Assembly: GCF_014279795.1 (NCBI RefSeq)
Contig: NZ_CP047945.1
Coordinates: forward strand, 1,136,572-1,200,571
DNA: 64,000 nucleotides
DNA from: Synechococcus sp. PROS-7-1
GTDB taxonomy: Bacteria; Cyanobacteriota; Cyanobacteriia; PCC-6307; Cyanobiaceae
Reading direction: 5' to 3'
Numbering within the stretch: the first letter of the stretch is position 1; each line of letters begins with the position of its first letter. The translations under genes and the position numbers were made by a program. Shown in pieces: positions 3,555-55,118 of the stretch. The notes below the pieces were generated by a model that saw only the letters and a program-made list of their open reading frames with translations, was not told where the DNA came from and did not search any database.

Positions 3555-5225
3555 TCAGGGCTGATCGGTGACCGCACCCTGGCTGCTGGAACTCACAAGC
3601 CGGGCATATTTGCCGAGGATTCCAGTGCGGTACTTCGGCGTTGGTGGTACCCAGGCGTTACGTCGCTGTGTTAATTCCGTGTCGTCCACATTGAGTTGGA
3701 GGAGCAGCTGATTGGCATCCACGGTGATGCTGTCTCCTTCCTTGATCAAGCCGATGGTTCCACCCACGGCCGCCTCAGGCGCCACATGGCCGATGACCAA
3801 ACCGTATGAGCCTCCGGAGAAACGGCCGTCGGTGATCAGCGCCACCTTGTCGAGCAGACCCTGGCCCACGATCGCGGAGGTGGGGCTGAGCATTTCGCGC
3901 ATGCCCGGACCGCCGACGGGGCCTTCGTTGCGCACCACCACCACATCACCGGCCTGGATCTGGTTGTCGAGAATCGCTTCTAGGCAAGTTTCTTCGCTTT
4001 CAAACACCCTTGCCGGGCCTGTAATTACTGGATTCTTCACACCACTGATCTTCGCGACTGCTCCTTCCGAGGCCAGATTGCCCTTGAGGATGGCCAGGTG
4101 GCCCTTGGCGTAGAGGGGATTGGAGAGTGGACGGATCACGTCTTGATCCGCGGGTGGTGTGGAAGGCACATCCGCAAGCAGTTCCTTCAGGGTTTTGCCT
4201 TCGATCGTGCGGCAATCACCGTGGAGCAGGCCGGCATCGAGCAGCAGTTTCATCACCTGGGGAATCCCACCGGCGCGGTGGAGATCCACCGTGACGTAAC
4301 GGCCACTGGGTTTCAGATCACAGATCACCGGAACGCGCTGGCGGATCTGTTCAAAGTCGTCGATGGCCAGTGCAACGCCGGCCGTGCGGGCTATGGCCAG
4401 CAGATGCAGCACCGAATTGGTGGAGCCACCCACCGCCATGATCACGCTGATGGCATTTTCAAAGGCCTCCCTTGTCATCAGGTCAAGCGGGCGGATGCCG
4501 GCCTGGATTGCCTGCACCAACACCTCGGCCGATCGGGCTGCACTGTCGGCCTTTTCCTCATCTTCAGCGGCCATGGTGGAGCTGTGGGGAAGACTGAGCC
4601 CCATCGTTTCGATGGCGGCGCTCATGGTGTTGGCGGTGAACATGCCGCCGCAGCTGCCAGCACCGGGGCAGGCATTTTTCTCGATGGCCGTGAGCTGCTC
4701 TTCGTCGATCTTGCCGCTGGTGATCTGACCCACCGCTTCAAAAGCACTCACCACGGTGAGGTCGCAGCCGCCCAGTTTTCCCGGCTTGATGGTGCCGCCG
4801 TACACGAAGATCGCTGGGATGTTCATCCTCGCCATCGCGAGCATGGCCCCAGGCATGTTCTTGTCACAGCCGCCGACGGCCAACACGCCATCCATGCTTT
4901 GGCCATTGCAGGCTGTTTCGATGGCGTCGGCGATCACTTCCCGGCTCACCAGGGAATATTTCATCCCCTCGGTGCCCATCGAAATCCCGTCGCTGACGGT
5001 GATGGTTCCGAAGGTCTGTGGCATGCCACCGGCCAGTCGGGCCGCTTCTTCGGCACGCCGGGCTAAGTCATCAAGCCCGACGTTGCAGGGCGTGATCGTG
5101 CTGTAGCCGTTGGCGATGCCGATGATCGGCTTGCCGAAGTCCTGATCGCCGAAACCCACGGCCCGCAGCATCGCCCGGTTGGGTGAGCGCTGGATCCCTT
5201 TGGTGACGGCATCGGAGCGGAGCAT
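3555..5225 (-). CDS. ilvD: Dihydroxy-acid dehydratase
   Basis: Catalyses the third step of branched-chain amino acid synthesis, dehydrating 2,3-dihydroxy-isovalerate and 2,3-dihydroxy-3-methylvalerate, and needs an Fe-S cluster. At 556 residues it has the usual length. Cluster-binding motifs are visible: [16 protein letters not shown] near residue 118 and [16 protein letters not shown] near residue 187. The C-terminal [16 protein letters not shown] signature is intact. The ATG at 5225 is followed by the typical [19 protein letters not shown] opening. Monocistronic in appearance. Confidence 0.98.
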
Positions 5226-5278
5226 GGATCAGGCCGTCATCCGGCGTGAAACTGAAATCAACCTACCGGCTGCGCTGG

Positions 5279-5575
5279 TCACCCCCTGGAGCCAAGGTCT
5301 TCAAGCTGCTTGCGAACATCCGCGATCGCGGCATTCAGCTGCTCAACCCGGGCCTCTAGCTGACTGTCGGCATCAAGAGGCTGGCGCTCTCCTGGTCCAA
5401 GAGCCTCGCTGCCGTCCTGCATGCGCGGGGCATACAACATCGAGCGCTTGTAGCGCAGACGCCGGCGACGGTCTGCTTCCGAGATCAGCCACCAGCCAAG
5501 GCCTGCTGCGCCCAGAACAGCTCCGCTGACGAGTGTCGCCAGTGTTGCCGAGGTTGAGTCTTGCTGACGCGCCAT
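5279..5575 (-). CDS. Conserved small membrane protein with C-terminal coiled coil
   Basis: 98 residues and not assigned to a named family. It has one N-terminal transmembrane segment (LATLVSGAVLGAAGLGWWLI), then a basic stretch (RRRRLRYKRS). The acidic/Gln-rich C-terminal helix (ARVEQLNAAIADVRKQLEDL) has heptad character and is probably a short coiled coil. It lies 24 bases downstream of the phosphoribosyltransferase-like gene on the same strand, so the two are likely co-transcribed. Probably a cyanobacterial lineage protein. Confidence 0.7.
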   Translation of the reverse strand: MARQQDSTSATLATLVSGAVLGAAGLGWWLISEADRRRRLRYKRSMLYAPRMQDGSEALGPGERQPLDADSQLEARVEQLNAAIADVRKQLEDLGSRG

Positions 5576-5599
5576 GGCCCTTCAATCCTTGGTTGAACC

Positions 5600-6217
5600 C
5601 TAGGTGGCCTGCGTTGATCTGATCCCGAGCCTTTGCAAGGGGTCACCGATTCCCGGAAGAATCTGATTCTGTTCATCAAGATCAGCATCGATGCAGGCGG
5701 TGTGAATGGTGATATCAGGGAAGGCCTCACCAATGCGCTTCAACCCCGGGCTGGCGCAAATTGTGGTGATCACGCGCAAGCGACGCCCATCCACCCCTTC
5801 TTGCTGCAACCGATTCAGGCTCGAAAGCAGAGTTTCGCCATCGTTGATCTGATCGAGAAGCAGCACAACACCCGCTTGGGCCTCGATGCCTGAGGGCACG
5901 CCATCGAGGCATAGATCAGCATTCGGAAGCACCTGGCGTGCACCCTCCCAAAGATGCAGGCCTCCAGGGAGAACCGGGATTGCAAGGAGGGGAACGCTCG
6001 CTTCAATCATCGTTCCTTCTGTGCTCGCCAGAGGTGTCTGCACCACCTCCCTCCGGTGCGGCAACCAGTCGCGAAGCGCTTCGTAACTCAGCCATCGGCC
6101 GAGCTCTTCCATTGCTGTACGAAACAGAGCTGCCGGAGTTCCCTGATGGCGCAGCACCGTTAGCCAGTGGGCAATGAGTGGGTGGGGCGGAACGACCACC
6201 CGAAGAGTCTTGGCCAT
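5600..6217 (-). CDS. Uracil phosphoribosyltransferase-like protein with degenerate PRPP loop
   Basis: 205 residues, the usual UPRT length. The N-terminal HPLIAHWLTVLRHQGTPAALF and the following FRTAMEELGRWLSYEALRDW align with the opening of uracil phosphoribosyltransferases. The C-terminal uracil-binding region is kept as QILPGIGDPLQRLGI. The PRPP-binding loop, normally hydrophobic residues followed by DPMLATGG, is here LLLDQINDGETLLSSL (residues 119-134). It lacks the Thr-Gly-Gly core. The fold is therefore clear, but uracil salvage activity is doubtful. It could be a regulatory paralogue or a repurposed enzyme. The start at 6217 matches the family. Confidence 0.8.
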   Translation of the reverse strand: MAKTLRVVVPPHPLIAHWLTVLRHQGTPAALFRTAMEELGRWLSYEALRDWLPHRREVVQTPLASTEGTMIEASVPLLAIPVLPGGLHLWEGARQVLPNADLCLDGVPSGIEAQAGVVLLLDQINDGETLLSSLNRLQQEGVDGRRLRVITTICASPGLKRIGEAFPDITIHTACIDADLDEQNQILPGIGDPLQRLGIRSTQAT

Positions 6218-47271: not shown

Positions 47272-49719
47272 TTAGTCAGCTTCCACGCGCAATGCCTCCC
47301 GCATCATTCGTTGCACGCGCTCCTGCACGGATTCGTTGGTCATCCGATTGTTTAAGCGTTCCACCAGTAGGGGGAAGGCGAGTGGGCCCGGTCTGGGTGT
47401 CGGGCAATGCAGGGTGTCTCCCTGGCGGATGCGCCTTAAAGCGGAGCGCAGTCGAGGTAACTCAAGCTGCTCCTGCAGCACCTCGTCTCTGGCCTGGCGG
47501 AGCAGGAGGTTGTTGGGTTCGTGTTTGCTGAACACTTCCCAGAGCAGGGAACCGCTGATCTGGAGTTGGCCGGTGGATTTGTTCTGGCCCGGGAATCCCT
47601 GCACCAGCAGCCCCGCCACCTGGGCAATGCTGCGAAACCGGCGTCGGCACAGTTCCGAAAGGTTCAGGGCCTGCTCCAGATCCTCTTCCAGGGATGCGTC
47701 ATCGAGGAGCTCGTCGAGATGGTCCTCCAGCAGCTGATCGATGGGATAGCCCCTCGGTGCCAGCAGTTCAAATCCGTAATCGTTCACCGACACAGTGATC
47801 GTTCCTCGCTGCACGCGCGTGAGGCGCGTTGCCCAGAGAAAGCCGAGCCCCTCATGCACAAAGCGGCCTTCAAAGGGGTAGGCGTACAGGTGAACCCCCT
47901 CCCGAGTTCGGCAGGTTTCGATCAGAAGCTGATCGCTTGCAGGCAGCGTGGAGAGATCCATCTGCCGCTCAAACAACGGTTCAAGCGCCTTGAGTTCCGG
48001 TGTGTCGAGCTCGCCGCGCCCAGCCCGGGCCACTTCTTCGCGCAGATGATGGGTGAGCAGATCGGACAGCGACATTTGCCCGCCAGCCCACGCTGGTACA
48101 GCAGTGCTTTTCTTGGTGGTGCTTTTTACATAAGCGGTCATCTCGCGCAGACGCACGAACTCCAGCTGACGGCCGGCAAAGAAGAACACATCCTTGGGCT
48201 TGAGCTGGCTGATGAAATTTTCTTCCACATGGCCGAGCACTGAGCCGCGCACGAAGCGCACGCGAATGGACGGAGCCGAGGTGATCGTGCCGATGTTGAA
48301 GCGGTGAAGCCTGGCAATGGCCGTCTCGCGGATCACGAAGCGGCCATCGTCTGTGGCTTCCAACTTTCTGTAGCGGGGGTAGGCCCCGAGGCAATCGCCC
48401 CCCTGCTCGAGAAAGCGCAGGCACCAGTCCCAGTCGGTTTGCGTGAGTGGGCCGTAGCTGGCGGTGGCACGAATGGCCTCCAGGGTTGATGTCGGGCAGA
48501 AACCAGGTCCACAGGCGAGTGTGGTGAGGTGCTGCAAGAGCACATCCAGGGGGGCGCGGGGAGGGCGTCGTTCCTCCACCAAGCCGTTCTCCAGTCCGCG
48601 ACGCACGGCACTGAGCTCAAGCAGTTCCAGGGCGTTGGTTGGCATGAATAACACCTTTGAGGTGCCCCCTGGTAGGTGGGCCGAACGCCCGGCTCTCTGC
48701 AGCAGACGGGCCAGATTCTTGGGAGATCCGATCTGCACCACCTGCTCCACAGGCTGAAAATCAACCCCCAGATCCAGGGAGCTGGTACAGACCACCCAAA
48801 GCATGGACCCTGCTTTCACCGAGGCTTCAATCGCCTCGCGTTCGCTGCGATCCAAGGCGCTGTGATGGAGAGCCAGCAGGCCCTCCATCTCAGGGCAGGC
48901 ATAGCGCAGGCACTGAAACCAGCGTTCTGCCTGGTTGCGGGTGTTGGTGAACAGCAGCGTGCTGGTGGTGGGAACCAGGGATCCAACCAGGTCCTCGTAA
49001 CGTCTCAGGCCGAGATGTCCTCCCCAGGGAAAGCCATCGATGCTGTCCGGAAGGATGCTGCGCACGCTTAGTCCCCGCTTGGGAGCTGCGGTGATCAGAC
49101 AGGGATCGCAACGGTTTCCGAGGGCATGCCGTGCCGATTCCTCCAGATTGCCGATGGTGGCGCTGATGGCCCAGGTTTGCAGTGCGGGTCGTTGTTGACG
49201 CAACCAACTGAGTGCCAGTTCTGCCTGAATCCCCCGCTTGCTGCCGATTAGTTCGTGCCACTCATCGAGGATCACGGTGTCGAGGGTCTGAAACAGACGC
49301 TCGCAGTGGCGGCCAGCCAGAAGCACGCAGAGCGACTCGGGCGTGGTGATCAGAATCTCTGGGGGCGTTTTGATCTGGCGCGAGCGTTCGGCCGTTGGCG
49401 TGTCTCCATTGCGGATGGCGACCCTCAGGGGCCATTGCATGGCGTCGATCGGATCCTGAATCGCCAGGGCGAGGTCGCGGCTCAGGGCCCGTAAGGGCGT
49501 GAGGTAGAGGAGTCGAACGCCCTTTTGTTCGGAGGGTGACGCGAGCATGCGGGCGATGGGCCCCATCACGGCGGCGTAGGTCTTCCCCGAACCGGTGGGC
49601 ACCTGAATCACCCCGCTGCGCCCCTCCAGATGGGCCGTCCAGGTGGACCGCTGGAAGGGCATGGGGGTCCAGCCCTGACGCGCAAACCAGCGCTCGATGG
49701 GGATCAGAAGACGGGTCAG
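47272..49719 (-). CDS. Ligase-associated DNA damage response DEXH-box helicase (Lhr-like)
   Basis: 815 residues if a CTG at 49719 is used; the first ATG (49662) gives 796 and cuts away LLIPIERWFARQGWTP, which belongs to the family's Q-motif region. Walker A is QVPTGSGKTYAAVMG, the DEXH box is VILDEWHELIGSKRG, motif III is ISATIGNLEE. Motifs V-VI (VQIGSPKNLARLLQRAGRSA) and the Lhr-type winged-helix and C-terminal domain follow. The CTG overlaps the DUF350 stop as CTGA, the same geometry as the common ATGA overlap. Partners: ligase at 53415, exonuclease at 55530, metallophosphoesterase at 36849. Confidence 0.9.
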   Translation of the reverse strand: MTRLLIPIERWFARQGWTPMPFQRSTWTAHLEGRSGVIQVPTGSGKTYAAVMGPIARMLASPSEQKGVRLLYLTPLRALSRDLALAIQDPIDAMQWPLRVAIRNGDTPTAERSRQIKTPPEILITTPESLCVLLAGRHCERLFQTLDTVILDEWHELIGSKRGIQAELALSWLRQQRPALQTWAISATIGNLEESARHALGNRCDPCLITAAPKRGLSVRSILPDSIDGFPWGGHLGLRRYEDLVGSLVPTTSTLLFTNTRNQAERWFQCLRYACPEMEGLLALHHSALDRSEREAIEASVKAGSMLWVVCTSSLDLGVDFQPVEQVVQIGSPKNLARLLQRAGRSAHLPGGTSKVLFMPTNALELLELSAVRRGLENGLVEERRPPRAPLDVLLQHLTTLACGPGFCPTSTLEAIRATASYGPLTQTDWDWCLRFLEQGGDCLGAYPRYRKLEATDDGRFVIRETAIARLHRFNIGTITSAPSIRVRFVRGSVLGHVEENFISQLKPKDVFFFAGRQLEFVRLREMTAYVKSTTKKSTAVPAWAGGQMSLSDLLTHHLREEVARAGRGELDTPELKALEPLFERQMDLSTLPASDQLLIETCRTREGVHLYAYPFEGRFVHEGLGFLWATRLTRVQRGTITVSVNDYGFELLAPRGYPIDQLLEDHLDELLDDASLEEDLEQALNLSELCRRRFRSIAQVAGLLVQGFPGQNKSTGQLQISGSLLWEVFSKHEPNNLLLRQARDEVLQEQLELPRLRSALRRIRQGDTLHCPTPRPGPLAFPLLVERLNNRMTNESVQERVQRMMREALRVEAD

Positions 49720-49925
49720 ACCAGAATCACGCTGACGACAACAGCTGTGACTGCGAGCACAACAGCTGCAACAACAATGCCCGCTGCGATGTTGCCCTTG
49801 CGAATCTCGCCTCGGTAATCGAGAGGGGTCAGGCGATCAAACAACCACACCCCCCCAACGATTAACAGCACCCCAGCGACTGTCCAGAGAAGACTGAGCA
49901 GCAGCTGGGCAATCGGTCCCGGCAT
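49716..49925 (-). CDS. DUF350 family membrane protein
   Basis: 69 residues, two TM helices: AQLLLSLLWTVAGVLLIVGG, then FDRLTPLDYRGEIRKGNIAA and GIVVAAVVLAVTAVVVSVIL. This is one half-repeat of DUF350. Families of this kind often sit with DUF4178 and polyamine genes, both of which appear on the opposite strand from 50 kb. It is divergent from the 49984 gene by 58 bases and overlaps the helicase. Confidence 0.85.
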   Translation of the reverse strand: MPGPIAQLLLSLLWTVAGVLLIVGGVWLFDRLTPLDYRGEIRKGNIAAGIVVAAVVLAVTAVVVSVILV

Positions 49926-49983
49926 CGGTCGTGAGGTGGAAGTTGTAGTAGTAATTTAGTGCTGGGCTGTCTGTAGGAAATTC

Positions 49984-50973
49984 ATGCAGCAGACTGCAGC
50001 TCCAGCTTCGGCGGCGGGTTCGGGCCTCAAGGCGCCAGCTTCATCGGTGTCACGACGGCCTCTTTGGGTCTTGTTGATTCCCGTCGGGCTGCTTGTTGCA
50101 ACATTTTTTGATCGCCCCTCGACGATCACCAACCTGAGTGTGCAGGTCCCCCGCGCTGATCAGCCGGTGGTGTCGGAACCTTTTGAGCTGCCAAACATCA
50201 ATGATCGTGTCACGGTCAGGTCCCGGTTTTCCGTTCCTGCAAAAACATTCGTTTTTCTTTCCACAGAGTTATTAGACGACAAGGGTGTTGTTCAGTTCCA
50301 ATACGACAGGGAAGGTAAAAGTCGCTCAAAAAATGATGGATTTATCGAGTTCAGACCAAAGAAGCCCGGGCGTTTTCGCTTGCGTTTCGAGGTGTATTTG
50401 CCCAGAGATCAACAAGCGCAGCCCACTCAACTTACGGCGCCAGTTGTTGTCAACAGTGTTATCACCAAGGATCCCTTCGATTCGGGTGCACTCGTTTATG
50501 GATTTTGGTCGACCGTCGTTGTCAGCCTTCTGTATCTGTCACAGGTGTATTTTCGTGGACATCTGCAATGTTCTGGCTGGTGTGAGAGTGAGTCTGAATT
50601 GAATCGCGCCACCCGTGGTGAGTATCAAAGTGGATTGCTCAGAGTGCGCTTGCGTGGAACCTTTGAGGTCCCGAAGCGTCTGTATGCATCGGAGTATCAG
50701 GCTCTAAGATTGGAGATTATCAATGGTTTAGGTCGTTCGGTTTTTCAGGGAACGATTCCTTGTCGGTTCACCCGCGATGGTGAAGACTCCGATACCTACA
50801 CGTTGCGTGCTGAGCCCCAGCTGTTCCATCTCACTCGGGATAGCTTCTTACGTTTTGACGTGAGTCTTCCGACCGTTCTTCAAAATCTCGACCCTGAGCG
50901 CATTGGTATTCAGATCTGCGATCAGGTCATCCTTCCCTGGACTCAAGCAATTCGAGCTCGGTTGAACCCATGA
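49984..50973 (+). CDS. Hypothetical membrane protein heading the polyamine-type cassette
   Basis: 329 residues with no assigned family. TM helices lie near residues 28-42 (LWVLLIPVGLLVATFF) and 170-187 (GALVYGFWSTVVVSLLYLSQ). Between them is a beta-sandwich (DRVTVRSRFSVPAKTFVFLS, GRFRLRFEVYLPRDQQAQPT). A cytoplasmic-looking C-terminal domain follows. Base use is more AT-rich, with more TTT/ATT/TTA codons than neighbours, hinting at a different history. The 3' end overlaps the next gene by four bases. Confidence 0.7.
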   Translation: MQQTAAPASAAGSGLKAPASSVSRRPLWVLLIPVGLLVATFFDRPSTITNLSVQVPRADQPVVSEPFELPNINDRVTVRSRFSVPAKTFVFLSTELLDDKGVVQFQYDREGKSRSKNDGFIEFRPKKPGRFRLRFEVYLPRDQQAQPTQLTAPVVVNSVITKDPFDSGALVYGFWSTVVVSLLYLSQVYFRGHLQCSGWCESESELNRATRGEYQSGLLRVRLRGTFEVPKRLYASEYQALRLEIINGLGRSVFQGTIPCRFTRDGEDSDTYTLRAEPQLFHLTRDSFLRFDVSLPTVLQNLDPERIGIQICDQVILPWTQAIRARLNP

Positions 50974-51245
50974 CGAAGCTTCTTTTGCTGTTTCTTAACG
51001 GAGGCATCGCTGCTCTTGCAGTGAGTGCAGCGTTGACCAACGACAGTGCGAACCAATTGGGTTCGAGCCTTTTGCCAGACACCGATACCCAAGGTGCGTA
51101 TCGCGGCTCCTATGTGGGTGGCCGTTGGGTCAGCCGCAGCTCCCGCTTGGAAACGAATCGGCTGCTGTACTACGGAGGCAGTGGCGGCTCTGGAGGTTCG
51201 TCCTACGGCGGAGGGTATGGCGGTGGTGGATGGGGCGGCAAGTAA
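50970..51245 (+). CDS. Small exported Gly/Ser-rich protein
   Basis: 91 residues: a signal or TM segment (LLLLFLNGGIAALAVSAAL), a short middle (YRGSYVGGRWVSRSSRLE) and a Gly/Ser/Tyr-rich tail (YGGSGGSGGSSYGGGYGGG). Overlaps the preceding gene by four bases and the spermidine-synthase-like gene by 16, so it is probably translated in the same unit. Function unknown. Confidence 0.7.
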   Translation: MTKLLLLFLNGGIAALAVSAALTNDSANQLGSSLLPDTDTQGAYRGSYVGGRWVSRSSRLETNRLLYYGGSGGSGGSSYGGGYGGGGWGGK

Positions 51246-52819
51246 CCGCCGCTGATCTCAGTCCCGTCCAGGTTCGGGTGCTGTTGGTGACGGCCATGGT
51301 GTCCTCTGCAGCTGGCCTAACGCTGGAGCTGCTGCTGGTCGCCCAGGCGAGTTACCTAATGGGTGATGCAACCCTTGCCACGGGTGTGGTGGTGGGCACG
51401 TTTCTCGCGGCCATGGGGCTGGGTGCCTGGTTGACCGAATTCATTGGCACGAAGAGGCAATCCCTGGTGCGATTGCTTCGGGCATTGATGCTGGTGGAAC
51501 TCTGTCTGTTTCCCCTCTGTTTGCTGGGACCTCTGGCCCTGTTCTGGTTGTTCTCGCGCAATGCGCCGCTCTGGTTGGCGACCGTCGTGCTCACTGTGCT
51601 TGTGGGGTTGCTTGGCGGCATGGAGCTGCCGCTGATCACGCGCATGCTCGAAACCCAGGATCAACTGCGCCGCGCCCTTGCAAGGGTTCTTGCGCTGGAT
51701 TATCTGGGGTCTCTCGTCGGTGCCCTTGCTTTCCCCCTGGTGCTGCTGCCCTGGCTCGGTCTGCTTCCATCCGCCGCGGCGTTGTCGCTCGTTCCAGTGG
51801 GGTGCAGCCTGGCCCTGGCCTCGGTTTTTCCGAGCCTGCGGCCTTGGCGCTACCCATTGCTAGCCCTGCTGCCCCTGGCATCGGTCGCGGGTGTGCTGAT
51901 CGCACCGCTGGGTGATCGCATCGAGGATCGCTTTTATGGGGCGCGGGTGATTGAAAGGAAGCAATCGCGGTTTCAGCGCATCGTGTTGACCCGCCAGGGT
52001 GCCGACCTCAGGCTTTTCCTAGATGGAGATCTGCAGTTTTCAAGCCTTGATGAGTACCGCTATCACGAAGCGTTGGTGCATCCAGCGTTGGCTTGGCACC
52101 CAGCACCGCGACGCATTCTTTTGATGGGCGCAGGCGATGGCTTAGCCCTCAGGGAAATCCTTCGTTGGCCTGACGTTGAGAAGGTCGATGTGGTGGAACT
52201 CGACCCAGAGGTCGTCAACCTGGCGCGCCGTCATCCCATGCTCCGGCGTCTCAATGCTGACAGCCTCAGGGATCCAAGGGTTCAGATTCATCTCGGTGAT
52301 GCCTATGCCCATCTGCGTTCTCTGCCCAACCAATACGACGTGGTGATTGCTGATTTTCCCGATCCGGATACGTTGCCCGTCGCTCGTCTCTACAGCGTGG
52401 GTTTCTATGGCACCTTGCGCCAACGGCTCAATCCAGGCGCTGTGGTTGTCACGCAGGCCAGTACACCCTTTCTCGCACCCCGCGTTCTGGCCTCGATTGA
52501 AGCTGCATTGCGGGAGGTGGGCTTGCTGACGCGTCCTTACTCAGTGGCGATTCCAAGTTTTGGACCCTGGGGGTTCGTGATGGCCCATGAGAACAACAGG
52601 TCCAATCGTTTCCGTCCGATACCGTTTGCCACTCGCTGGCTGGATGCCGATCAGCTTTCTGGACTGTTTGCCTTCCCCCGTGATTTGCGGCCTGAGGCTT
52701 TGGATAGAGTTCAACCCAATCGAATGACGCGCCCGGTTCTGCTCGACTATCTGAGGAATGATCGCCGCCGCAGGCTGCAACAACCCCGTCCGCCAATTTC
52801 TACGACTACAGGTTTCTAA
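51230..52819 (+). CDS. Multi-TM spermidine-synthase-like aminopropyltransferase
   Basis: 529 residues from ATG 51230. The first ~210 residues hold six to eight TM helices (VTAMVSSAAGLTLELLLVAQ, TFLAAMGLGAWL, VLTVLVGLLGGMELPLI). The C-terminal Rossmann domain carries aminopropyltransferase motifs: FLDGDLQFSSLDEYRYHEAL, ILLMGAGDGLALREILRWPD, VVELDPEVVNLARRH and VVIADFPDPDTLPVARLYS. The substrate-binding Tyr/His/Glu and catalytic Asp are intact. Predicted to make or modify polyamine-like amines at the membrane. A TAATG overlap leads to the DUF4178 gene. Confidence 0.88.
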   Translation: MGRQVTAADLSPVQVRVLLVTAMVSSAAGLTLELLLVAQASYLMGDATLATGVVVGTFLAAMGLGAWLTEFIGTKRQSLVRLLRALMLVELCLFPLCLLGPLALFWLFSRNAPLWLATVVLTVLVGLLGGMELPLITRMLETQDQLRRALARVLALDYLGSLVGALAFPLVLLPWLGLLPSAAALSLVPVGCSLALASVFPSLRPWRYPLLALLPLASVAGVLIAPLGDRIEDRFYGARVIERKQSRFQRIVLTRQGADLRLFLDGDLQFSSLDEYRYHEALVHPALAWHPAPRRILLMGAGDGLALREILRWPDVEKVDVVELDPEVVNLARRHPMLRRLNADSLRDPRVQIHLGDAYAHLRSLPNQYDVVIADFPDPDTLPVARLYSVGFYGTLRQRLNPGAVVVTQASTPFLAPRVLASIEAALREVGLLTRPYSVAIPSFGPWGFVMAHENNRSNRFRPIPFATRWLDADQLSGLFAFPRDLRPEALDRVQPNRMTRPVLLDYLRNDRRRRLQQPRPPISTTTGF

Positions 52820-53424
52820 TGGCGTCTTTGATCTTTCTTTTTGTCATTTTTGCCCTTCTGCTTTGGTTTTTTTCTCGCTACAGCATGGGCCGGTGGCATC
52901 GTCCTCCAGTCGGATCAATGCCCCAACAGCGCACTTTGTTCAATCTTCAGGTGGGTGATGTTGTTCAGCATCAATCACGCGATTGGATTGTCGAAAACAC
53001 CCTTGTTTTTGATCAAGAAGGTTTCCAGTGGCAGGAGTATTACCTGAGGGACGGCGCAGAGGGAGTTTGGCTGGTTGTTGTTGACGACGATCGGATTGAA
53101 CTGTCTTGGATGCATCAGGTGCCTCCAGAAGAGGTCTCTGTTCTATTCCCCCTTCGTGATGAGCTTGTTTTCCAAGGCATCCGTTATCGACTGGCGGAAA
53201 AGGGAATCGCCAATTACCGCAAAACATCCCGCGGCAGTCAGCAGGGAGGTCCCTGTCGTTTTCACGACTATGTTGCTCAGTTCGATCGAGTTCTCAGCGT
53301 CGAGATTTACTCCGCATCTGAGCTTCCTGCTGATGGTGGTGAGATTGAAATTTGTGTTGGAGTTCGTATCACTCCAGAATCCCTCACCTTGCTACCGGGA
53401 GATGGTCGCAGCGTTTACGCCTGA
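52819..53424 (+). CDS. DUF4178 domain protein
   Basis: 201 residues. An N-terminal TM helix (IFLFVIFALLLWFFSRYSMG) precedes a DUF4178 domain (LFNLQVGDVVQHQSRDWIVE, FQWQEYYLRDGAEGVWLVVV). The domain is found beside spermidine synthase and DUF350 genes in varied bacteria. The end overlaps the convergent DNA ligase by ten bases. Base composition is AT-leaning like the first gene of the cassette. Confidence 0.85.
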   Translation: MASLIFLFVIFALLLWFFSRYSMGRWHRPPVGSMPQQRTLFNLQVGDVVQHQSRDWIVENTLVFDQEGFQWQEYYLRDGAEGVWLVVVDDDRIELSWMHQVPPEEVSVLFPLRDELVFQGIRYRLAEKGIANYRKTSRGSQQGGPCRFHDYVAQFDRVLSVEIYSASELPADGGEIEICVGVRITPESLTLLPGDGRSVYA

Positions 53425-55118
53425 GTAAGACGTTGCTCATCGCACAGTTGTGCAGCGTCGATGAGCGTATTGGCACTGTCCGCCGTGCGGTCATGGCGCC
53501 AGCGCAGAATTCTGGGGAAGCGAACAGCCATTCCGCATTTGTGGCGTTTGGATGGCTGGATGCCCTCGAACCCGATTTCAAACACCAGATCAGGAGTCAC
53601 CGATCGCGTTGGTCCGAAACGTTCCATTGTGTTCGCTCGAATCCAACGATCGAGGTCGAGAATTTCACGATCATTCAGGCCGGAATAGGCCTTGGCAAAG
53701 GTCACAAGTTGATGCTGATCAGGATCGGCTGAGCGGCGATCCCAGAGTGCAAAGGTGTAATCGGTGAACAGATTGGCTCGGCGTCCACGCCCTGCCTGGG
53801 CATAGATCAACACGGCGTCCAGGGTCATGGGATCGCGCTTGTGTTTCCACCAATGGCCGCGTTTGCGTCCACTCAGGTAGGGGGATTGCCTCTGTTTCAG
53901 CATCAGCCCTTCCGCTCCCTCACGCACGGCCCGCTGGCGCAGGGTGTCGAGGTCATCCCAGGAACTGAGTTGTGCCCCAGCGCTGATGCGCAGCTGTCCC
54001 GAGCATTGGGCCTTGTCCATGGAGGCTAGGAGAGTGTTCATTGCCGCGAGGCGCTCGTCCAGGGGACTGTTGCGACGATCCTCTCCACTGGATTCGAGCA
54101 GGTCGTAGGCCACGAAACAGGCCGGGCAGTCTTGACGAAGTTTCCGGCCCACGCTCTTGCGACCCAGTCGGCGCTGCAGATCGCTAAAAGGTCGCGGTCG
54201 GTCGTCTTCGGCAGCCCAGCAGATCACCTCACCATCGAGAACGGTTTCATCGGCCAGGGAAGCGGCCATCTCAATCAGCTCAGGAAATTGTGCATTGATC
54301 AATTCCTCACCACGACTCCAGAGATAGGTGCCGCTGTTGCGTTGGATCAGTTGCCCTCGAATCCCGTCCCATTTGTGCTCCACCCACCACTGCTGTGCCG
54401 GTGTCTCCCGCAGGGAGTCCAGTTGCAGGGGGCTGGCCAGAAAAAACGGATAGGGCACCGGTCCCCGATTGGTTCGTTCGGTTGTGGGTGCTGCGGTGAG
54501 CGCATCAAACCAGCTCGGTGAAGGCTCGAGGGGGGCCATCAGCCGCTCCAACACCAGGGCCTCTTCCAGGGAAAACCCTTTGGCGATCGCCTTCACCACG
54601 AGCCCCCGTGCAACGCCGATCCGAAACCCTCCAGTGAGCAATTTGTTGAATAGAAAATGCCGTTCATCCGGCAGGGTGCCCCAGATCGTGAGCAGGGCTG
54701 CACTCTGTTGCTGTGGCTCGAGCACCGCCAGCTTCGGTAGCAGCTCTTCCATCCACCAGTGCAGGGGCGGGTTGGTTGCGATGGTTTCGATCCAGGCATT
54801 CAGCCCGGCATCAATCCACTGAACCGGAACGGATCCTTTGAGCTGCGGCCACAGCAGCGCGAGGGTTTCGGCGGAATCACCAACATGGCTCTGACAGTCA
54901 TCGAAGAGCCAGTCGGGAATGGCATCACAAGCCTGCAAAATCTCGCGAAGCCGCCGACCGGTGATCAGGCGTCGTCGCTTTTCCCCCATCAGCAGCAACA
55001 CACTCCAGGCGCTGTCGTGCGCCTCGCCTTTGCGGAGTTGATCGGCGATCAGATCGACCTTGCGCGCCGTGCCCGTGGATTGATCCAGGGCATCGATCAG
55101 CGTTGCGAAGTCATCCAT
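53415..55118 (-). CDS. ATP-dependent DNA ligase (ligase-associated DNA damage response type)
   Basis: 567 residues. A helical N-terminal domain (VDLIADQLRKGEAHDSAWSV) precedes the nucleotidyltransferase core with the adenylated Lys in EHKWDGIRGQLIQRN. Next come ADETVLDGEVICW and EGLMLKQRQSPYLSGRKRGH, then an OB-fold. Cyanobacteria have an NAD-dependent LigA for replication; this enzyme serves repair with the metallophosphoesterase, exonuclease and helicase in the window. Confidence 0.95.
   Translation of the reverse strand: MDDFATLIDALDQSTGTARKVDLIADQLRKGEAHDSAWSVLLLMGEKRRRLITGRRLREILQACDAIPDWLFDDCQSHVGDSAETLALLWPQLKGSVPVQWIDAGLNAWIETIATNPPLHWWMEELLPKLAVLEPQQQSAALLTIWGTLPDERHFLFNKLLTGGFRIGVARGLVVKAIAKGFSLEEALVLERLMAPLEPSPSWFDALTAAPTTERTNRGPVPYPFFLASPLQLDSLRETPAQQWWVEHKWDGIRGQLIQRNSGTYLWSRGEELINAQFPELIEMAASLADETVLDGEVICWAAEDDRPRPFSDLQRRLGRKSVGRKLRQDCPACFVAYDLLESSGEDRRNSPLDERLAAMNTLLASMDKAQCSGQLRISAGAQLSSWDDLDTLRQRAVREGAEGLMLKQRQSPYLSGRKRGHWWKHKRDPMTLDAVLIYAQAGRGRRANLFTDYTFALWDRRSADPDQHQLVTFAKAYSGLNDREILDLDRWIRANTMERFGPTRSVTPDLVFEIGFEGIQPSKRHKCGMAVRFPRILRWRHDRTADSANTLIDAAQLCDEQRLTQA

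Follow-up and report, generated by a model that had tools for sequence, protein, structure and literature searches.

Our analysis of a 64,000-nucleotide stretch of the genome of Synechococcus sp. PROS-7-1 (contig NZ_CP047945.1, positions 1,136,572 to 1,200,571 of the forward strand; this whole stretch is hereafter called the window, and coordinates refer to it) points to a small exported protein ending in an invariant lysine as the likeliest acceptor of a membrane-fused aminopropyltransferase. The source genome is a single contig of 2.57 Mb, and the genes in question form a cassette at window 49716-53424. Reading of the open reading frames (ORFs) gave five genes, namely those of a DUF350 protein, a protein of 329 amino acids (ORF329), a Gly-rich protein, a SpeE-like enzyme fused to transmembrane (TM) segments (TM-SpeE) and a DUF4178 protein. 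We tentatively propose that TM-SpeE performs extracytoplasmic aminopropylation of the C-terminal lysine and not spermidine synthesis. An initial annotation of the window had described a membrane-located aminopropyltransferase system of undefined chemistry; the first part is retained here, whereas for the chemistry the C-terminal lysine now names a likely acceptor.

The Gly-rich protein (91 amino acids, 50970..51245, plus strand, no family match) is regarded as the likeliest acceptor because its C-terminal lysine is invariant. An alignment of 12 orthologues contained five invariant columns: the start methionine, G46, W53, R59 and the last residue K91, whose AAG codon (51240..51242, plus strand), located from the sequence and the alignment, stands just 5′ of the stop. 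Related loci were collected by a search with TM-SpeE, and the named cyanobacterial loci are the best 80 of 143. A hidden Markov model (HMM) of the small protein was built from alignment columns 1-70, i.e. with the tail excluded, and the best small ORF per locus was taken at E<1e-2. This model found the gene in 71 of the 80 named loci, and the last residue was lysine in 71 of 71. The residue preceding it varied (G in 43, A in 25 and V in 3), and in 51 of the 71 proteins the terminal lysine was the sole lysine past residue 25. Within the same loci lysine was the last residue of ORF329 in 1 of 73 cases and of TM-SpeE in 0 of 78, and the background of lysine-ended ORFs amounted to 3.5% (ORFs of at least 150 amino acids) and 5.4% (45-130 amino acids). 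In three more loci (L037, L041, L112) a lysine-ended candidate was identified by position, and in three of the other six (L083, L095, L096) the contig breaks off upstream of SpeE. In L084 (4797-4946) a further small ORF carries the same tail (GGGPSRGK) and might be a second acceptor or a fragment.

The second test ignored the last residue and considered stand-alone small single-TM ORFs at most 1 kb upstream of TM-SpeE in 135 loci. It returned 126 ORFs in 103 of these loci, 100 of them lysine-ended, and left 32 loci with no candidate, several of which do have the small gene by other scans. According to the printed positions, 21 of the 26 candidates with another last residue overlap a lysine-ended gene in another frame. 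Where a locus had exactly one candidate, it was lysine-ended in 78 of 81 cases, the exceptions being L092, L157 and L161. The tail-less HMM and this rule are the only tests unbiased for the last residue, since several other scans were lysine-seeking; the listing used for loci from other classes of the phylum and from plasmids is likewise blind in that all candidates are printed, most of the others being internal-start pieces or other frames.

The same ending was found well beyond cyanobacterial cassettes of this type. In other classes of the phylum, small TM proteins next to TM-SpeE have the ending GGK in 10 of 10 loci of group f43 and HK in 16 of 16 loci of group f55 (L190 from a lysine-seeking scan only), where His and often Tyr precede the terminal lysine; in f45, f46, f47 and f53, with a single locus each, the small protein is lysine-ended too. 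Plasmid loci of Burkholderia, Novosphingobium, Ensifer, Tritonibacter and Gemmatirosa gave a lysine-ended protein in 10 of 10 examined (SHK, THK, ESGK, RVK, HGK), with the three Burkholderia genes, which come from lysine-seeking scans, lying about 3 kb away from SpeE on the other strand and carrying a lipobox-like LFSC. In Alteromonas, reading of the annotated genes (and not the small-ORF rules) revealed a lipoprotein of 510 amino acids in the operon (N-terminal LISAC) that ends in FRNRGPSSGK, an ending similar to that of the cyanobacterial proteins; among the annotated genes of this operon no small counterpart was seen. Six small proteins and the Alteromonas lipoprotein matched no Pfam family above cut-off, and eight proteins tested matched no NCBIfam family. 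Without their last ten residues the protein bodies fell into 12 clusters at E<1e-3, a set whose rows were partly picked by their lysine, and some of these clusters are surely distant relatives of each other. The PROS-7-1 protein shares the traits of the proposed lysine-tailed family, i.e. it is small and exported, lies beside TM-SpeE and has lysine (K91) as its last residue.

TM-SpeE (529 amino acids, 51230..52819, plus strand) belongs to the polyamine aminopropyltransferase family NF002956 (550 bits, cut-off 472) and also matches PF01564 (133.8 bits, cut-off 22.9). Its membrane domain comprises residues 12-236 (51263..51937, plus strand) and is delimited by the helices of an AlphaFold2 model and by the charge pattern. 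This model (34 alignment rows, predicted local distance difference test (pLDDT) 88) places seven long helices ahead of the SpeE domain (12-44, 47-71, 79-109, 114-141, 146-176, 178-199 and 201-236). A profile-coverage filter kept 131 of 135 TM-SpeE sequences (L167 is not among them), and hydropathy over these 131 likewise gave seven segments. Positively charged loops generally face the cytoplasm (positive-inside rule). For 87 cyanobacterial sequences the mean number of K+R was 2.11, 2.72 and 2.99 in loops 2-3, 4-5 and 6-7 compared with 0.00, 0.17 and 0.01 in loops 1-2, 3-4 and 5-6; the corresponding values for the 44 other sequences were 2.16, 3.23 and 4.02 compared with 0.27, 0.02 and 0.84. 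The K+R sum of the three inner loops exceeded that of the three outer loops in 131 of 131 sequences. Loop charges and the seven-helix model predict an N-terminus on the inside followed by seven crossings, so that the SpeE domain would be located on the extracytoplasmic side. The lysine tail is probably outside the cytoplasm as well, as suggested by N-termini that are short and signal-like and by bearers in Burkholderia and Alteromonas that look lipoprotein-like, both judged by eye.

Directly 3′ of TM-SpeE, several lineages encode a protein of 512-571 amino acids. Of six such proteins tested, five (L152, L165, L169, L170, L186) matched amine oxidase PF01593, and L166 matched only NAD/FAD-binding models. 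RR-type N-termini resembling the signal motif of twin-arginine translocation (Tat), assigned by motif, occur in L152, L165, L166, L169, L170, L179, L180 and L197, and single-Arg forms (SRxxFL[KR]) in 12 of 16 f55 loci. A Tat-like amine oxidase following TM-SpeE may thus be a further hint, at the level of sequence, towards the extracytoplasmic side.

The aminopropyltransferase-fold domain of TM-SpeE starts at residue 239 (51944..52819, plus strand), as defined by alignment to 3anx and 1uir and by Foldseek to 1uir (TM-score 0.74 by target; membrane and enzyme domain were queried together, and the matches listed (50) are all SpeE). Aminopropyltransferases share known residues for donor binding and catalysis and known motifs for the acceptor. 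The donor-site and catalytic residues align with those of the Thermus aminopropyltransferase (3anx, 1uir), in agreement with the motifs having been called intact in the initial annotation: Q269, E275, Y278, H279, D303, D325 and D375 are present in 131 of 131 TM-SpeE sequences and D378 in 129 of 131. The acceptor side differs. TM-SpeE has DFPDPD and PSFGPWGF where the canonical SpeE of the same genome has DGSDPAGP and SGWWSW, all 131 TM-SpeE sequences have P[SA]FG.WG, and each of the 122 rows printed has D[FL]P[DN]P. The putrescine-side motif of the genome's own SpeE (DxxDPxGP, GWWSW) was not found in TM-SpeE. These motifs hint at an acceptor other than putrescine.

It had further been claimed that DUF350 and DUF4178 recur with polyamine enzymes, and we found the gene set far outside close relatives. 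Within the phylum, TM-SpeE matches were present in 33 of 386 genomes at E 1e-60, and for another class (that of G172) the count was 29 of 194 genomes. Full-length relatives (12 records, coverage at least 80%) are located on plasmids of Burkholderia, Novosphingobium, Ensifer, Tritonibacter, Gemmatirosa and Alteromonas. The gene order of the cassette is shared with other cyanobacteria, and the cassette is therefore not a chance grouping. Single-query tblastn found ORF329 near 71 of the 80 named loci, DUF4178 near 67, DUF350 near 39 and SpeD near 4; these counts are lower bounds, because a profile search added ORF329 in L034 and L035 that tblastn had missed. Profiles were also run on 46 more loci, which came from other classes of the phylum and from plasmids and included L157, L159 and the viral L236; they detected DUF4178 in 38 and DUF350 in 35 and missed an eight-TM DUF350 annotated in L167. 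Twelve viral contig loci included one full TM-SpeE (L236), whose contig stops 150 bases past the gene. In other lineages, genes for PspA, SPFH/band-7 proteins and a protein kinase neighbour TM-SpeE, and these neighbours are in line with a possible role in membrane stress.

Two variants of the gene set deserve separate description. In the f44 clade (L144, L145, L160, L161) TM-SpeE occurs without DUF350 or DUF4178 by profile in the locus DNA searched, and the last-residue-blind listing gave no lysine-ended candidate in the four loci; perhaps this TM-SpeE has a different acceptor. In L145 it adjoins a PMT-like glycosyltransferase. Three other loci (L031, L032, L033) encode a soluble SpeE-like protein together with FemAB/GNAT-like (Pfam match checked in L033), DUF4178 and eight-TM DUF350-like proteins, and L033 also has a SpeD-like gene. 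As no lysine-tailed protein was seen in these three loci, the idea that they belong to the same system was set aside. As separate observations, the cassette of L162 is apparently decaying, with TM-SpeE in two pieces and an intact lysine-tailed gene, and in L151 a DUF2617 protein (5208-5654) shares an operon with DUF4178, the lysine-tailed protein and TM-SpeE. The latter links this group to the DUF2617/DUF4247 operons of Ravi et al. 2024 (PMC11237479).

From these features we infer an acceptor, a membrane side, a route for the donor and a product as follows. The Gly-rich protein would be exported and anchored, displaying its flexible, lysine-ended tail on the side away from the cytoplasm. TM-SpeE, with its N-terminus inside and seven helices, would hold the enzyme domain on the side of the tail. 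Decarboxylated S-adenosylmethionine would then donate 3-aminopropyl groups to the terminal lysine, at its side-chain amine. This lysine would substitute for the free end of a putrescine or cadaverine molecule, its amine threading into the SpeE pocket, and the Gly, Ala, Ser and Pro residues ahead of it in cyanobacteria would suit a narrow pocket entry. In the weakest step of the scheme the donor, made in the cytoplasm by SpeD, would have to pass via the membrane domain or alongside it. Assembly, donor supply or sensing could be the tasks of DUF350, DUF4178 and ORF329 as subunits. A possible but doubtful extension is that exported decarboxylated S-adenosylmethionine feeds aminopropyl, perhaps oligo-propylamine, chains onto the C-terminal lysine of an anchored peptide or lipoprotein, and that the Tat-exported amine oxidase of some lineages converts them to a reactive aldehyde and possibly an envelope cross-link, which would be an unrecognised bacterial modification.

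Several points weigh against extracytoplasmic lysine aminopropylation. The reading is a computational one. Transport of the donor by the seven-TM domain is assumed, and we know of no decarboxylated S-adenosylmethionine outside the cytoplasm. DUF350 and SpeD were detected near just 39 and 4 of the 80 named loci, respectively (tblastn lower bounds). Three of these loci (L063, L069, L092) have upstream DNA yet neither the small gene nor ORF329, L157 and L159 are without the small gene, and the viral L236 shows none. Conversely, L164 and L149 have the lysine-ended protein without DUF4178 in the locus DNA searched. Charge leaves the orientation of the small protein ambiguous, with K+R of 1.18 before and 1.20 after the TM segment (before exceeding after in 30, less in 57 and equal in 39). 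The C-terminal lysine could also serve assembly or stability. Furthermore, the Thermus SpeE (1uir) likewise has no Trp-rich acceptor motif, and for this reason the motif difference alone does not exclude polyamine acceptors.

The alternative that fares best, though we consider it unlikely, is that, in the membrane, TM-SpeE transfers aminopropyl groups to a small molecule or to the headgroup of a lipid, with the lysine-tailed protein as a structural or regulatory subunit whose tail would occupy the active site or its vicinity as a gate or mimic. The intact donor site and the presence of a membrane domain are compatible with it, but such a function does not by itself need a lysine as last residue on differently built proteins, including a lipoprotein of 510 amino acids. 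Less probable still is that the terminal lysine stays unmodified and acts as a signal for stability, assembly or sorting, to be read by DUF350, DUF4178 or a different partner. In f44, where DUF350 and DUF4178 do not accompany TM-SpeE, a lysine-ended protein is likewise missing, so that the lysine goes with the larger gene set, as this explanation would have it; in three cyanobacterial loci, however, DUF4178 and an eight-TM DUF350-like gene accompany a soluble SpeE-like gene and no tail was seen.

We regard it as very unlikely that TM-SpeE is a membrane-anchored but otherwise ordinary spermidine or spermine synthase. The family name of NF002956, polyamine aminopropyltransferase, and the presence of SpeD in the genome would allow for it. 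By profile search the rest of the genome encodes one other SpeE, of the canonical kind, and a sole SpeD, far off at 525919. An ordinary spermidine synthase is disfavoured by this canonical SpeE and by the differing acceptor-side motifs, and membrane fusions of this sort (MFS-SpdSyn, from the clusters with AdoMetDC and DUF350 ascribed to Li et al. 2019, Biochem J 476:2579) reportedly failed to complement a SpeE deletion. The least credible explanation is a PspA-type membrane stress sensor with vestigial SpeE chemistry, which the PspA, SPFH/band-7 and DUF4178 genes adjoining TM-SpeE in other lineages might suggest but which does not fit the strongly conserved catalytic residues and the lack of PspA among the identified cassette and flank genes.

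Regarding the partner genes, the DUF350 protein (69 amino acids, 49716..49925, minus strand) has two TM segments and matches PF03994 with 49.9 bits against a cut-off of 26 bits; a second DUF350 was not found in the genome by profile search. It is divergent from ORF329 (49984..50973, plus strand), with 58 bases between the two. As had been noted from the sequence, the plus-strand genes overlap by 1-16 bases, specifically by 4 (ORF329/Gly-rich protein), 16 (Gly-rich protein/TM-SpeE, given the ATG at 51230) and 1 (TM-SpeE/DUF4178). Neither ORF329 nor the Gly-rich protein gave a single Pfam or NCBIfam match, and both had rightly been left unassigned. ORF329 is conserved in cyanobacterial cassettes, and its AlphaFold2 model (pLDDT 88) shows a first TM helix, a beta-sandwich predicted to lie outside, a second TM helix and a second beta-sandwich, i.e. 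one sandwich on each side of the second helix. Fold searches (Foldseek, VIA-align) returned generic beta-sandwiches only, such as the GOLD domain 5azx_A (Z 11.0, 98 residues, root mean square deviation 2.8) and capsid jelly rolls, and gave no functional lead; going by the model, ORF329 might be suited to link both sides of the membrane. The DUF4178 protein (201 amino acids, 52819..53424, plus strand) has an N-terminal hydrophobic segment and matches PF13785 with 105 bits against a cut-off of 25; it would face the cytoplasm, as predicted by Ravi et al. 2024 (PMC11237479). The closest named match, among the matches listed, is Synechococcus WH7803, with a TM-SpeE 97% identical.

The cassette is flanked by two genes outside the system, an Lhr-type DEAD helicase (47272..49662, minus strand; PF19306, PF08494, PF00270) and an ATP-dependent DNA ligase (53415..55118, minus strand; PF01068) with a 10-base tail-to-tail overlap with DUF4178. 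The initial annotation had seen the cassette as embedded in repair genes, a link that looks incidental. Helicase and ligase adjoin each other in 6 of 6 cassette-less genomes examined (G001, G007, G008, G009, G011, G018; alignment gaps of 83-285 bases), and G017, with its cassette at a different place, likewise has helicase and ligase side by side. For these two reasons the repair setting is not a functional link and this candidate was rejected. DUF4178 was present in 15 of 60 genomes searched; within the genus it was found in 7 of 31, the own genome included (several being incomplete), and was not found in 24 of 31 (some incomplete). The cassette is accessory, having been either gained or lost between helicase and ligase by part of the genus, without functional link. 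Of the described arrangement of DUF350, the divergence is correct, and the overlap with the helicase would need a non-standard helicase start: starting from any ATG, GTG or TTG, the helicase ORF ends at 49662, 53 bases short of DUF350. By eye, helicase-like residues run upstream of the first ATG towards the DUF350 stop (window 49662-49720). A chromate transporter (PF02417, 46057-47256) lies beside the helicase, and the flank therefore does not consist purely of repair genes.

When compared to known systems, TM-SpeE resembles canonical SpeE (PF01564; 3anx, 1uir) in fold and in donor-binding and catalytic residues and differs from it in the seven TM helices in front, the DFPDP and PSFG.WG motifs and the predicted extracytoplasmic side. 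With the clusters of Li 2019, in which the acceptor of MFS-SpdSyn was reportedly left open, the cassette shares a TM-SpeE fusion with DUF350 that is probably not a polyamine synthase; unlike those clusters it has no linked speD in the window, SpeD being at 525919 here and near 4 of 80 related loci. LysW and Pup are carrier or tag proteins with a reactive side chain on a C-terminal Glu. They are likewise small, with an invariant last residue and a flexible end, but present a carboxylate on the terminal Glu where the protein described here has the amine of a terminal Lys and is membrane-anchored, and the likeness is one of description only. In diatoms, silaffins carry propylamine chains on lysines. 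The proposed product would similarly be propylamine groups on lysines of an exported peptide; the silaffin lysines are internal, eukaryotic and modified by other enzymes, so that the idea alone is shared. The literature covered, which lies outside most subscription journals and bioRxiv, gave no evidence for silica in Synechococcus, making this an analogy only, and yielded, by titles and the opening lines of abstracts, nothing to the point on aminopropylated C-terminal lysines or on periplasmic or membrane aminopropyltransferases; DUF4178 is named in one paper of it.

The association of a seven-TM SpeE fusion with DUF350 and DUF4178 has already been published by Ravi et al. 2024 (PMC11237479), who suggested that membrane-fused spermidine synthases may aminopropylate 'other substrates'. 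According to the accessible text of that study, its PSP-associated operon group 2 likewise combines an N-terminal seven-TM and SpeE-like fusion, DUF350, DUF4178 and an exported partner (PMC11237479). The exported partner is the lipoprotein Ctha_1186 there and the small Gly-rich, lysine-tailed protein here; ORF329 is present here, and DUF350 has two TM segments and 69 amino acids here compared with eight TM segments in group 2. The CesT/Tir-PspA dyad of this group was not found, there being no PspA Pfam match in the cassette or the two flanking genes. The Alteromonas lipoprotein is a possible counterpart of Ctha_1186. The terminal lysine and an outward-facing enzyme domain are not mentioned in the accessible text, and the word lysine is absent from the main text (PMC11237479). 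The terminal-lysine rule, the finding that it extends to a lipoprotein and the prediction of an enzyme domain facing outwards appear to be new, although the lysine rule may already be in print.

The terminal lysine names a concrete acceptor for membrane-fused SpeE, a membrane side and an expected shift of +57.06 Da per group, and thereby makes the question of the acceptor of TM-SpeE fusions directly testable. If true, the proposal would establish a new protein modification and an aminopropyltransferase active outside the cytoplasm, and its product would be, to our knowledge, the first protein-linked polyamine of such a type in bacteria and a distant analogue of hypusine and of the silaffin lysines. 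DUF350, DUF4178 and the attached operons with PspA and band-7 genes could then be given a meaning as well.

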